From contig VBQC01000002.1 in NCBI GenBank assembly GCA_005887825.1, positions 1 to 51,881 of the forward strand: a DNA stretch of 51,881 bases, written 5' to 3'. Shown here piece by piece: positions 2,707 to 7,481 of this stretch. Both the position numbers and the translations under genes were made by a program. The notes below the pieces were generated by a model that saw only the letters and a program-made list of their open reading frames with translations, ran no database searches and was not told where the DNA came from. The DNA comes from Verrucomicrobiota bacterium (GTDB taxonomy: Bacteria; Verrucomicrobiota; Verrucomicrobiia; Chthoniobacterales; UBA10450). Each line of letters begins with the position of its first letter. Position 1 is the stretch's first letter.

Positions 2707-3981
2707 TCAGAGCTCGTTGCGCAGGATGTTGAAAACGGTTGTGTTATCGAGCACGCCTTGCAATGCCTCTGTTCCAGGCCCGCTGCCAAACGCAACGACG
2801 TCTTCGACAGTGCCCAACGCGGATTTCGTGTAGAATGTCGCTGGCTCCGGCTGTTCTGCTTCGGGTTGTTCGCCATTGTCTCCGTTCAGCTTGCCAGGTA
2901 TTTTCGCCGCTCCGTACGATTTTGTGCCATTCGGACCGGTTGCCCACGTAATCCAGGGCTGGCCGGCCGAGTTAAATCCCAGCAAGGCGATGCCGCTGTC
3001 TTTCCGAAATGGAAATCCATTTAAGCTCAATCCGCCGATTGCGGCATCGCCGGAGACAATGATGGTCGATTTGGGCCCGGCATAATTTCGTGCAACGGCG
3101 ACTGCGCGATCCAATTCAACCACTTGGCCGAGCGTTCTTTCACCATTGTTTTCCTGCGCCGCCGTGCGCATTAGTCCTGCATCGACCACGAGCATGTATC
3201 CGCCAGTGTTATATTGAAGTAATTCGATCGCCCGACGTACCATATCCGAAAGACTCGGTTGCTGGCTCCGCTCTTCGACTTGGTTCACGAATGCAAGGTC
3301 CACTTTGCTAAAAGCGCCGAAAAGTTTCGGCCGACGCCATGCGGGAATCGCTTCCAACTCGGCTCGCGTTCGAACAATGTCGAAACCGTTGCTACGAAGC
3401 TCGAGTAAGAGATCGCGCCGGTCCTGTCTCTCTCCGTCCTTTGCAGTGGGAAGGAATTGTGCCGCACCGCCACCCATTGCGATGTCGATCTTTCCTCCAG
3501 CAACGAACTCAGCTGCGATCTTCTCGACATCGCTCGGATCGGACGGGTGCGCGTAAAAAGCCGCGTTCGTCGGGTCAGTTAGTTTCACATCTGTCACCAG
3601 ACCAGTGGCTCGTCCATGTTCGCGTGCCAATTCAATGATGCTCGTGATCGGTTTCCCATCGCCATTGATCGCGATCGCGCGGTTGATCGTTTTGACGCCT
3701 GTTGCAATTGCAGTTGCGGCGGCTGCTTGATCCGGAGCGGCGAAATCTTTCGAGTAATTCGTTAGCAAAGCTGCACGAGGCATGGAATCCAGGCTCAGGT
3801 GTGTACCTGCCCCACCGGCGTACGCACGCGTCGGGGCAAGCCGTGCCGGCGTAAGGCCTTCTCCAACAAACAAGATAATTCCGAAAGGTTTTCGAATGAC
3901 CCAGTGCTGAAAATAAAGCACGCCTAGTCCGGCAAAGGCCAGCAAACAGAAAAGCGCCAGCAACTGGTTGCGCCATTTCAT
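2707..3981 (-). CDS. Alkaline phosphatase-fold protein lacking the catalytic residues (pseudoenzyme)
   Basis: 424 residues from the ATG at 3981, which has AAGGAAGGGA directly upstream; an alternative ATG at 4017 adds 12 residues. An N-terminal membrane anchor (about 5-24) is followed by a protein that aligns along its length with PhoA-type alkaline phosphatases: ILFVGEGL, ATAIATGVKT, TGLVTDVKLTDPT, and a C-terminal GPGTEALQGVLDNT. The functional positions are changed throughout. The metal-binding GDG is GEG (residue 41). The nucleophile motif DSA is DQA (84-86). THAT is TDPT. The VEG-xx-D-xx-H metal loop is VDAGLMRTAAQ (266-276). The ADH motif is GDA (311-313). The final metal His region reads GTVED instead of HTxED. 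Phosphatase activity is therefore unlikely. A binding or regulatory role on the outer face of the inner membrane is an inference. It is convergent with the TPR gene. Confidence 0.85.
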   Translation of the reverse strand: MKWRNQLLALFCLLAFAGLGVLYFQHWVIRKPFGIILFVGEGLTPARLAPTRAYAGGAGTHLSLDSMPRAALLTNYSKDFAAPDQAAAATAIATGVKTINRAIAINGDGKPITSIIELAREHGRATGLVTDVKLTDPTNAAFYAHPSDPSDVEKIAAEFVAGGKIDIAMGGGAAQFLPTAKDGERQDRRDLLLELRSNGFDIVRTRAELEAIPAWRRPKLFGAFSKVDLAFVNQVEERSQQPSLSDMVRRAIELLQYNTGGYMLVVDAGLMRTAAQENNGERTLGQVVELDRAVAVARNYAGPKSTIIVSGDAAIGGLSLNGFPFRKDSGIALLGFNSAGQPWITWATGPNGTKSYGAAKIPGKLNGDNGEQPEAEQPEPATFYTKSALGTVEDVVAFGSGPGTEALQGVLDNTTVFNILRNEL

Positions 3982-4231
3982 TCCCTTCCTTGTAGTGGGG
4001 GTCTGTGACCGTCGCAAATATCGCCCGGCAAATAATGCAACTCTGAACGCTTTCGGGCTTTGGAATAAGGCGGTACGTCGGACAAGATCGTGTCACATAT
4101 GTAACATCAATCTGTCCTGCGCGTTGCCGCTGTCCAAAAACAGAAACGGCCAATAGGGCCCTCTCTACAGAAGAAAGCAGAAGAAAGAAGCGCTTGTCGA
4201 TCTTCGCAATCGTCGGCAAAGTGCCCTGCAT

Positions 4232-5785
4232 ATGGCCGGCCCCGTTATGCTGATTATTCGCGATGGCTGGGGCATTAATCCCGGTGGTCAGGAAAAACGG
4301 GAAGAAAACAGCGATGCAACTCTTCTTGCCCGAACGCCGTTTCACAACGGGCTCTACCGGAAGTATCCAGGCGCCAAATTGAGCGCGAGCGGCACCGATG
4401 TCGGTTTACCTAAGGGCCAAATGGGCAACTCCGAAGTTGGCCATCTTAACCTGGGAGCTGGCAGGATCGTTTATCAGGATCTGACGCGAATTAACAAGGC
4501 CATAACGGACGGCGAATTGACGCCCAACGCCGTACTGCGGGAAACTCTTGCCGACACGCGCGGCCACCGGCTTCACTTGCTCGGGCTGGTTTCCGATGGT
4601 GGCGTTCACAGCCATTACTTGCACATGATCGCGCTTGCGAACGCCGCGCGGGAATCAGGCGTTGCGGAGATTTTGATTCACGCGTTCACGGATGGGCGGG
4701 ATACGTCTCCCACTGGCGGGGCTGGGTTTTTGAAAAAGTGCGAGGAGGATCTTGAGAAGAGCGGCGGGCGGATCGTCACCGTCGTAGGACGATACTTCGC
4801 GATGGATCGCGATCGGCGTTGGGACCGCACGAAAAAGGCTTGGGATGCGATCGTTCTCGGACGCGGCGAAATTTGTAAGACGTCCCCCTCTGCCGCTGTG
4901 GGTCGGCAATATAAAAATGGTAAAACCGATGAGTTCATGCCGCCGCTGATTTTTTCTTACGCAAATGAACAGCGCGTCTGTGATGGCGACTCCGTTTTGT
5001 TTTTTAATTTTCGTGCAGATCGGGCGCGGCAATTGTCGCAGGCGTTTTTGCTTAAGGACTTCGATGGTTTTGATCGCGAAGTGTGGCCGCAAGTCCATTT
5101 CGTCACTCTCACGCAATACGACGTGACTTATCCTTCGCCGTTCATTTTTGAGCCCGCCAAGCTCGCGCACATTTTAGGCGAAGTCGTAAGCGCCGCGGGC
5201 AAATCACAATTGCGCATCGCCGAGACGGAAAAGTATGCGCACGTGACTTACTTTTTTAACGGTGGGATCGAGCGCCCTTTTCCCGGCGAAGACCGAAAAC
5301 TTGTGCCTTCGCCAAAAGTCGCGACCTACGACCTTCAGCCGGAGATGAGCGCGCGCGAGGTTACCGACGAAGTCCTCGCGCGCATAGCAAATTACGATTT
5401 AATCGTTCTTAATTTCGCCAATCCGGACATGGTCGGCCATACCGGAATTCTGGAGGCTGGAATCAAGGCCGTCGAAACCGTCGACGATTGCATTGCCCGC
5501 ATTATTCCCAAGCTTCTCGATCTCGGCGGCAAATGCATCGTCACGGCGGACCACGGAAATTGCGAGCAAATGCGGAACCCTGATGGGTCGCCGAACACTG
5601 CGCACACGAGCAACGTTGTGCATTTCATCTACGTCGCGAAAGATGCCGCACAGTTTCGCTGCGAAGATGGAATCCTCGCCGACATAGCGCCCACGCTCCT
5701 ATTTCTACTCGGACTGCCGCAACCGAGGGAAATGACCGGGCACAATTTGCTCGTGCCAGTTTCGCAGGACGCGCCAGTCAGTTAG
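4232..5785 (+). CDS. gpmI: 2,3-bisphosphoglycerate-independent phosphoglycerate mutase
   Basis: 517 residues, the usual length of the metal-dependent iPGM family, which interconverts 3- and 2-phosphoglycerate in glycolysis and gluconeogenesis in the cytoplasm. The start MAGPVMLIIRDGWG carries the first metal-binding Asp. The phosphoserine nucleophile lies in GQMGNSEVGHLNLGAGR (Ser at about residue 67). HAFTDGRDTSP, the FNFRADRARQL segment, the C-terminal NFANPDMVGHTG and VTADHGNCEQM supply the remaining substrate and Mn ligands. All expected motifs are intact. It stands alone on the plus strand; its 3' end just reaches the stop of the convergent gene. Confidence 0.97.
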   Translation: MAGPVMLIIRDGWGINPGGQEKREENSDATLLARTPFHNGLYRKYPGAKLSASGTDVGLPKGQMGNSEVGHLNLGAGRIVYQDLTRINKAITDGELTPNAVLRETLADTRGHRLHLLGLVSDGGVHSHYLHMIALANAARESGVAEILIHAFTDGRDTSPTGGAGFLKKCEEDLEKSGGRIVTVVGRYFAMDRDRRWDRTKKAWDAIVLGRGEICKTSPSAAVGRQYKNGKTDEFMPPLIFSYANEQRVCDGDSVLFFNFRADRARQLSQAFLLKDFDGFDREVWPQVHFVTLTQYDVTYPSPFIFEPAKLAHILGEVVSAAGKSQLRIAETEKYAHVTYFFNGGIERPFPGEDRKLVPSPKVATYDLQPEMSAREVTDEVLARIANYDLIVLNFANPDMVGHTGILEAGIKAVETVDDCIARIIPKLLDLGGKCIVTADHGNCEQMRNPDGSPNTAHTSNVVHFIYVAKDAAQFRCEDGILADIAPTLLFLLGLPQPREMTGHNLLVPVSQDAPVS

Positions 5786-6525
5786 AAGGATCGACAACGC
5801 TCGGCCGCTACGCCGTCGGATGTGATTTCCAAGTGTCGATTCAGCGTTCGCGTTCCGGCCGCGGCGATTCGCTGCAGCAGGTGTAATCGCATCTCGGGCC
5901 TGTTTTCCTGTCGCATCGGCTTGCGTGCGAGCGTTAGCGTATCATTCGATTCTACAAGGGCACCCCATCCAACCGGAATTTCTGAATCGCGAAACAATTC
6001 GCCTGGCAGCACTAGAAAAAAGAAATTCGCGCAGCGATAGCGGATCAGTTTGTCGAACTTCGTGCAATCATAGAGGCGATTTTGCAGCGCGTTCAGCTCA
6101 CGCAAAACGCGCGCATAACCGCGGTGCCCGATCGCCGTGAAATCATATGAATCGAATTCCGGAAAGAGCGAATCGGTAATCCGCAAATTCGGATAGTGCA
6201 CACGCAAGCGTGCTTCGAGAATTTGGCGGCGCTGACAGATTGTTTCGAGGCGTTGGCGCGCTGCCTCGCTGCGGCAATTATCCCTTCGCAAATCAGAGAG
6301 GGCTTGCTTGCATTCAAAAATCGCTGTCGATCCGATCGTTTTTGGATGTGGCCGATAAGCGGCCACGTCGGCGCGATATCGGCATTGAGGCAACCTGACT
6401 TCCATCGCGCAAGCGGAATAGCCGTGCGCTTGGGCCCAGAGAAAAGCAAGACGTTTCAGCTGAGCGTGCCTCGCGGTTTCCCCCTGCGAGTTCGTTACTC
6501 CGACACCCATTTCGCGAGTTCGCAT
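5782..6525 (-). CDS. PD-(D/E)XK nuclease-like protein (MmcB-like)
   Basis: 247 residues from the ATG at 6525, which lies inside the last codons of hemB (overlap about 30 bases); an ATG at 6510 is a second possible start. The N-terminal half has the PD-(D/E)XK arrangement: MEVRLP (Glu42), a YRADVAAY strand (Asp53) and IFECKQALSDLRRD (Glu71-x-Lys73). The last segment resembles the MmcB/DUF family of putative DNA-repair nucleases. The remainder is charged and helical, with a FFFLVLPGELF strand near residue 180. I infer a nuclease or nuclease-derived fold; the substrate is unknown. The tight overlap with hemB suggests translational coupling rather than a shared function. The gene converges on gpmI with a 4-base overlap of the stop regions. 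Confidence 0.75.
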   Translation of the reverse strand: MRTREMGVGVTNSQGETARHAQLKRLAFLWAQAHGYSACAMEVRLPQCRYRADVAAYRPHPKTIGSTAIFECKQALSDLRRDNCRSEAARQRLETICQRRQILEARLRVHYPNLRITDSLFPEFDSYDFTAIGHRGYARVLRELNALQNRLYDCTKFDKLIRYRCANFFFLVLPGELFRDSEIPVGWGALVESNDTLTLARKPMRQENRPEMRLHLLQRIAAAGTRTLNRHLEITSDGVAAERCRSF

Positions 6526-7481
6526 GCCCAATAGGTAACGATAATGTCCGCGCCCGCGCGTTTCAGCGCAGTCATGACCTCGAGAACAGCAGCGCGCTCG
6601 TCTACGATTCCTTTTTCGGCGGCCGCTTTGATCATCGCGTATTCGCCGCTCACATGATAAACGGCGGTCGGCTTGCCAAAGCGTTGGTGCATCCGCCACA
6701 GGATGTCGAGGTACGGCAGAGCTGGTTTCACCATCACGATGTCCGCTCCCTCATCGATATCCAGAGCCACCTCACGCAGCGCTTCATCTGCGTTCGCGTA
6801 GTCCATTTGGTAGGAACGACGATCGCCAAATTGCGGTGGGCTCTCGGCGGCCTCGCGAAAGGGGCCATAAAAAGCCGACGCAAACTTGGCCGCATAACTC
6901 ATAATTCCAGTTTGATCGAAGCCGTTCGTATCGAGCGCTTCGCGAATAGCGCCAATGCGACCATCCATCATGTCGCTCGGCGCTACCATGTCCGCGCCTG
7001 TTGCCGCGTGGGAGAGCGCGGTTTTGACGAGAAGCTCGATGGTCTCGTCATTAAGAACATGGAAATGATCTCCATCGATGCGCGTGACACCGCAGTGACC
7101 GTGGCTCATGTATTCGCACAGGCACACATCGGTGATGGTAACGAGGTCTGGGCATTTCGCCTTAATGGCTCGCAGCGCTTTCTGAACAATACCTGTTTCC
7201 ACATACGCGCCGCTGGCTTGTTCGTCTTTGTGCTCCGGAATCCCGAAAAGCAAGACAGCTTGCAGCCCGAGATCCTGAGCGCGCTGCGCTTCATCGACAA
7301 TTTCCTTCAGGGAGAGCTGGAAAACCCCTGGCATGCTCGCAATCGGACGGCGCTGTTTCAATTTTTCGCTTACAAAAAGCGGGAGAATAAAATCGTGGGC
7401 GCTTAATTGTGTCTCGCGGACAAGGTTCCGCAGGGCAGGGGAGCGCCGCAAACGGCGCGGGCGATGCACCAATCTTCTCAC
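6495..7481 (-). CDS. hemB: Delta-aminolevulinic acid dehydratase (porphobilinogen synthase)
   Basis: 328 residues from a GTG start. The family condenses two 5-aminolevulinate molecules to porphobilinogen in tetrapyrrole (heme) synthesis. RPRRLRRSPALRNLVRET is the standard N-terminus. TDVCLCEYMSHGHCG contains the three cysteines of the zinc-binding class. SYAAKFASAFYGPFR and VMVKPALPYLD each carry one of the two active-site lysines. DYANADEALRE and YHVSGEYAM are also conserved. The length is normal. The downstream nuclease-like gene starts within its last codons. The upstream region (7482-7743) is shared with the divergent coaX. Confidence 0.97.
   Translation of the reverse strand: MRRLVHRPRRLRRSPALRNLVRETQLSAHDFILPLFVSEKLKQRRPIASMPGVFQLSLKEIVDEAQRAQDLGLQAVLLFGIPEHKDEQASGAYVETGIVQKALRAIKAKCPDLVTITDVCLCEYMSHGHCGVTRIDGDHFHVLNDETIELLVKTALSHAATGADMVAPSDMMDGRIGAIREALDTNGFDQTGIMSYAAKFASAFYGPFREAAESPPQFGDRRSYQMDYANADEALREVALDIDEGADIVMVKPALPYLDILWRMHQRFGKPTAVYHVSGEYAMIKAAAEKGIVDERAAVLEVMTALKRAGADIIVTYWACELAKWVSE

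Follow-up and report, generated by a model that had tools for sequence, protein, structure and literature searches.

A membrane-anchored alkaline phosphatase homologue of Verrucomicrobiia with a conserved fold and a largely replaced active site

A gene on the reverse strand of the analysed DNA of a Verrucomicrobiota bacterium (a stretch of 51,881 nucleotides, referred to as the window) encodes a homologue of alkaline phosphatase (AP) in which the nucleophile, the phosphate-binding arginine, all three ligands of the first zinc and the histidine of the second zinc are replaced. The protein, designated pseudo-AP, is shared by relatives across the class Verrucomicrobiia and is maintained by strong purifying selection. 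It is probably an ancient anchored pseudophosphatase whose catalysis was lost once in the class and which would now be a non-catalytic binding or scaffold module. PF00245, to which the protein belongs, is a known family, and pseudoenzymes are a known kind of protein. The initial annotation had also read the gene as a pseudoenzyme, and had proposed an orthologue search, a dN/dS analysis and structure prediction as checks; the retained fold, the catalytic losses common to the orthologues and the purifying selection all point in the same direction.

Gene and protein

The draft genome comprises 3.06 Mb in 367 contigs, of which C234 is the window. The coordinates of the determined features are presented in Table 1. 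The reading frame was found to be intact, as had been claimed, with the ATG at 3981, the stop codon at 2707–2709 and a product of 424 aa. The start is backed by the N-terminus MKWRN or VKWRN, common to the orthologues. The ribosome site had been described as good; GGAAGGGA does lie immediately 5' of the ATG, but the spacing is short.

The protein matched PF00245 over residues 35–422 with an E value of 2.8e-55 and 188.4 bits, the curated cut-off of Pfam being 24.4, and all 67 members of alignment A3 matched the same family. The closest PDB sequences were those of solved APs. With the NCBIfam PhoA equivalog NF007810, the score was 119.4 bits, which is below the curated cut-off of 540.

Table 1. 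Positions of the features in the window; residues of E. coli PhoA are given as equivalents.
Feature	Position	Strand	Evidence
Pseudo-AP gene (424 aa + stop)	2707..3981	-	PF00245 188 bits; orthologues in 47/58 relatives; AF2 pLDDT 90.1
Q85, equivalent of S102; preceding D84, equivalent of D101	3727..3729	-	Q39, S25, A12, E5 and others among 91
E41, equivalent of metal ligand D51	3859..3861	-	E in 65, D in 25, of 91
D136-P137-T138, equivalent of D153-A154-T155; Mg-site residues kept	3568..3576	-	T155 in 80/91
VDAGLMRTAAQ: E322 to D267, D327 to R272, H331 to Q276	3151..3183	-	PhoA alignment
D312-A313: D369 kept, H370 lost	3043..3048	-	PhoA alignment
G390, equivalent of Zn ligand H412	2812..2814	-	N29, G24, P11, V9 and others; H once in 91
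Putative N-terminal transmembrane signal-anchor (about residues 5–28 of MKWRNQLLALFCLLAFAGLGVLYFQHWV)	3898..3969	-	Model helix, omega, family-wide hydrophobic segment
Low-confidence insertion, residues 356–375, just before the former H412 loop	2857..2916	-	pLDDT < 50; omega 0.23 at 353–382
Cofactor-independent phosphoglycerate mutase, divergent neighbour, also of the alkaline phosphatase superfamily	4232..5785	+	Head-to-head in 67 pseudophosphatase loci

Predicted fold and membrane anchor

The AlphaFold2 model of pseudo-AP had a mean pLDDT of 90.1 and a pTM of 0.88. The VIA-align comparison with human placental AP (1ew2) resulted in a Z of 51.0 with an rmsd of 2.3 Å over 377 residues; the structural Z values were about 46–48 with the structures of E. 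coli PhoA and 45.5 with 1alk. The model thereby strongly supports an intact AP fold and, together with the PF00245 match, bears out the earlier statement that the PhoA framework is preserved.

The description of the protein as membrane-anchored also held. Residues 2–28 form a helix in the model, and a strongly hydrophobic segment ending 15–18 residues before the D51 position was detected in 111 of 111 inactive family members, whereas the N-termini of active-looking relatives are mostly signal-peptide-like. R4 and N5, which would lie on the cytoplasmic side of the anchor, are invariant. The topology would place the anchor in the inner membrane and the AP domain in the periplasm. A search of the window genome for a second protein with the same anchor gave no convincing match (best E = 0.08).

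Lost and kept residues of the active site

Residue equivalences were assigned by alignment to the numbering of E. coli PhoA, the sequence of which was checked at known numbered residues. The R166 and H412 columns are loop positions, where the exact aligned residue is approximate.

The initial annotation had stated that all key residues were replaced, which was confirmed for the nucleophile, R166, the ligands of Zn1 and the histidine of Zn2, but not for the Mg-site set, D101, D153 and D369. The change of DSA to DQA is a true loss of the nucleophile, with Q85 in place of S102; a serine was present at this position in just 25 of 91 relatives, and the D101 equivalent is invariant (91/91). The phosphate-binding R166 corresponds to P149 in the approximate alignment, no arginine being located there, and arginine occurred in 1 of 91 sequences. 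The Zn1 ligands D327, H331 and H412 were all lost, the equivalents being R272, Q276 and G390. The last of these positions, also noted earlier as changed, is G390 or the adjacent leucine; the loop carries an insertion and contains no histidine at this point. Of the Zn2 ligands D51, D369 and H370 (E41, D312 and A313), D369 was kept, as it was in 57 of 91 relatives, and H370 was lost; thus, in the reported change of ADH to GDA, the aspartate is the retained one.

Other reported motif changes proved to be milder. The replacement of GDG by GEG does affect D51, but the change to E41 is conservative. In the loop that had been given as VEG-D-H turned into VDAGLMRTAAQ, D327 and H331 are lost, but E322 is replaced conservatively by D267, and 83 of 90 sequences have aspartate at position 322. 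The reading of TDPT as a loss from THAT was not upheld: TDPT keeps D153 and T155, and E. coli reads DAT at this site. The Mg site formed by D51, T155 and E322 (E41, T138 and D267) is conservatively retained in pseudo-AP and in 78 of 91 sequences. Compared with random core triplets, the Mg triad was not significantly more conserved (p = 0.15).

All six key residues S102, R166, D327, H331, H370 and H412 were present in 8 of 8 canonical sequences. In contrast, none of the six remained in 59 of 90 relatives from Chthoniobacterales, and no relative of this order among the 91 aligned kept more than two. Variability at these six positions now exceeds that of randomly drawn core positions (p = 0.003); the variability percentiles of S102, R166, D327, H331, D369, H370 and H412 were 61–86. 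The near-invariant polar residues of pseudo-AP are R124, Q256, N278, E281 and D394.

Two combinations of residues were distinguished in the former metal centre: E51 with R327 and D369 in 47 sequences, and D51 with K or R at position 369 in 23. The pattern tracks clades, and one family (f4) breaks it. As a lead, the alternation hints at side-chain charge replacing the lost zinc in the core.

Orthologues and phylogeny

Homologues were found in 47 of 58 related genomes. Within the genus, most were 78–86% identical; for most of the remaining families of the order, the identity was about 45–55%. Named records assign homologues to Candidatus Udaeobacter, Chthoniobacteraceae, Terrimicrobiaceae and other Spartobacteria/Chthoniobacterales. 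A class-wide profile search detected the anchored protein without an active site in at least 8 other families of Verrucomicrobiia. The sequences fetched from f8, f16, f19, f93, f103, f105, f109, f113, f118 and f123 had no active site and a similar N-terminal anchor; the f123 sequence, a fragment, was not included in the trees. Family f88 and a second gene of some members of the order look active, having the full catalytic set.

In a phylogeny built from 79 sequences, a single branch with a support of 100/97 set the inactive ones apart, and it was recovered in all bootstrap trees. With the active-site columns and the N-terminus and anchor masked, one inactive clade was again obtained (98/91, 98% of bootstrap trees), and in both trees the close active sequences fell outside it. 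Since the inactive sequences form one clade when rooted on the canonical enzymes, catalysis would have been lost a single time. The losses are common to the orthologues, none of which keeps a canonical active site, and the replacement residues at the lost positions differ between them.

Searches of several near-complete genomes from f2, f5, f11 and part of f8 did not detect the gene, which indicates that it is dispensable over evolution. One metagenome bin of the same genus contained, on a 6-kb contig, a second copy with 65% identity (L046, G005:C19), which is probably due to mixed binning. In two metagenome-assembled copies (L007, L029/L116), a single stop or frameshift was observed, which could be an assembly error or a recent loss. 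In the order, there is also a separate PF00245 branch (L049, L050, L051, L052), which keeps D51, S102, R166, E322, D327 and D369, has N at 331, S at 370, D at 412 and E/G at 153/155, and matches the solved APs weakly; by its residues, it is possibly an AP subfamily with altered metals.

Selective constraint

The pairwise NG86 omega within the genus was about 0.10 (87 pairs, dS below 1.2), meaning purifying selection, and in matched pairs from the same genomes it was 0.104 for pseudo-AP versus 0.067 for the adjacent phosphoglycerate mutase, an enzyme of glycolysis. The most constrained parts were residues 1–33, containing the transmembrane part (omega 0.05), and residues 331–352 (0.02); the insertion region was the least constrained. 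The earlier argument against simple decay is in agreement with these values and with the losses common to the orthologues. That the gene is decaying and persists by chance, or is an artefact of assembly, is practically negligible as an explanation: stops or frameshifts occur in the few metagenome-assembled copies mentioned above, but nearly every one of about 110 sequences across class-level divergence is intact, and these intact frames, the omega and the fixed spacing of the anchor rule it out.

Genome context and other phosphatases

The 67 loci in which pseudo-AP and phosphoglycerate mutase stand head-to-head span the family and portions of two further ones; elsewhere in the order, the arrangement is not present. 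The intergenic region 3982–4231 is a head-to-head promoter region common to the two genes. The divergent pair is conserved in the family, and the two products, both of the alkaline phosphatase superfamily, would act in different compartments.

A functional link through the gene neighbourhood was considered and rejected, the neighbours beyond phosphoglycerate mutase being non-recurrent; in other families these were uricase, OHCU decarboxylase, thymidylate kinase, sigma-54, histidine phosphatase and others. As phosphoglycerate mutase is itself absent beside many order-level orthologues, the context suggests no partner.

On the reverse strand at 5785–6546, a 254-aa protein adjoins delta-aminolevulinate dehydratase and is conserved in the family (about 43 loci). 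It had no Pfam or NCBIfam match; the 'ECKQA' after an 'ADVAAY' stretch, noticed by eye, suggests a PD-(D/E)XK-like nuclease.

The window genome contains no other PF00245 gene. Among 34 genomes of the same genus, no canonical PF00245 gene was found, the extra matches being split or second copies of pseudo-AP. PhoD was absent from the window genome and was present in 3 of the 23 searched genomes of the genus.

Discussion

The proposed course is a single loss of catalysis in an ancestral member of the class Verrucomicrobiia, whose lineage bears a non-cleaved transmembrane anchor as well. The AP domain would face the periplasm, tethered to the inner membrane, and would act near it as a rigid module for binding or scaffolding. 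The residual Mg-like site (E/D51, T155, D322) may bind a cation for stability or for the docking of a ligand. As the most constrained parts, the transmembrane and juxtamembrane residues and residues 331–352 are the likeliest partner contacts. A binding or regulatory role in the periplasm, as originally suggested, would be compatible with this picture. More tentatively, the class-wide family of single origin might have become a dedicated part of the verrucomicrobial inner membrane with a structural or assembly function, its partner being bound via the conserved transmembrane helix, and might represent the first described lineage of PhoA-family pseudoenzymes.

Judging from the residues, the phosphatase activity has presumably been lost. 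Residual activity is nevertheless possible on sequence grounds, considering the serine at 102 and the D369 retained in part of the relatives, the PhoA single-ligand mutants H331Q, H412N and D369N with crystal structures in the PDB, and PDB entry 1alh, the title of which suggests a one-zinc mechanism.

Among the alternatives, a sensor of phosphate or another ligand, with the old pocket binding a small, possibly phosphorylated or cationic, molecule and signalling through the conserved transmembrane helix, is unlikely. Very conserved transmembrane and juxtamembrane sequences with the invariant R4 and N5, and the residual Mg-like site, would fit such a role. However, the phosphate-binding arginine and the zinc ligands are gone, the pocket residues differ between orthologues, and there is neither a cytoplasmic output domain nor a linked kinase or regulator gene.

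That the protein is still an enzyme, acting on another substrate with migrated residues or by a single-metal mechanism at the Mg site, appears slightly less plausible than the sensor. Migrated catalytic residues are known among pseudoenzymes (PMC10211241), the Mg-site triad is conservatively kept, the equivalents of D101, D153 and K328 are often kept, and five polar residues are near-invariant. Against this, the nucleophile and zinc positions drift and have no fixed polar residue, the triad does not stand out from random core triplets, and most of the conserved polar residues occur also in the canonical relatives or are structural.

Regulation of a canonical PhoA through mixed dimers is highly improbable. 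AP enzymes of the PhoA fold are dimers, and some members of the order carry an active-looking PF00245 gene as well. However, no such partner was found among the 34 genomes of the genus, and PhoD is rare in those searched, by which the mixed dimer is largely ruled out there.

Pseudo-AP can be compared with known systems. With PF00245 APs (E. coli PhoA and other bacterial APs, human placental and tissue-nonspecific APs), it shares the whole-domain fold, the motif order, D101, D153, T155 and, in the genus of the window, D369. In contrast to these, it does not have the nucleophile, R166, D327, H331, H370 and H412, possesses a transmembrane anchor where they have a signal peptide that is cleaved, and contains the low-confidence insertion before the H412 loop. 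The active-looking relatives of the class (L173/L174 of f88; L047, L187, L188, L191, L192 and L195 of the order) score highest among the sequences with a retained active site, at 214–356 bits against the family profile; unlike pseudo-AP, they have the full catalytic residues and mostly signal-peptide-like N-termini, and fall outside the pseudo clade. The eukaryotic pseudophosphatases STYX, MK-STYX, PTPRK D2 and MTMR13 have similarly lost catalytic residues of a phosphatase fold, are kept by selection and have non-catalytic roles (PMC8269279, PMC9640194, PMC10211241), but they belong to tyrosine-phosphatase folds of eukaryotic signalling, unrelated to the AP fold. In the open-access literature, a coverage outside which most subscription journals lie, no description of a PhoA-family pseudoenzyme was found.

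Pseudo-AP is easily mislabelled as a working phosphatase, and the form without the active site spans a class of soil and freshwater bacteria. Genomes of freshwater Verrucomicrobia have been annotated with phoA (PMC5615132). Since the aligned members all match PF00245, phosphorus-cycle surveys can count them as phoA, and the products of the genes counted in this way very likely release no phosphate. In the window genome, the only PF00245 match is of this kind. With a single ancient loss of catalysis, an anchor and long conservation, the family would offer a clean system for studying the function of an enzyme fold without its chemistry.
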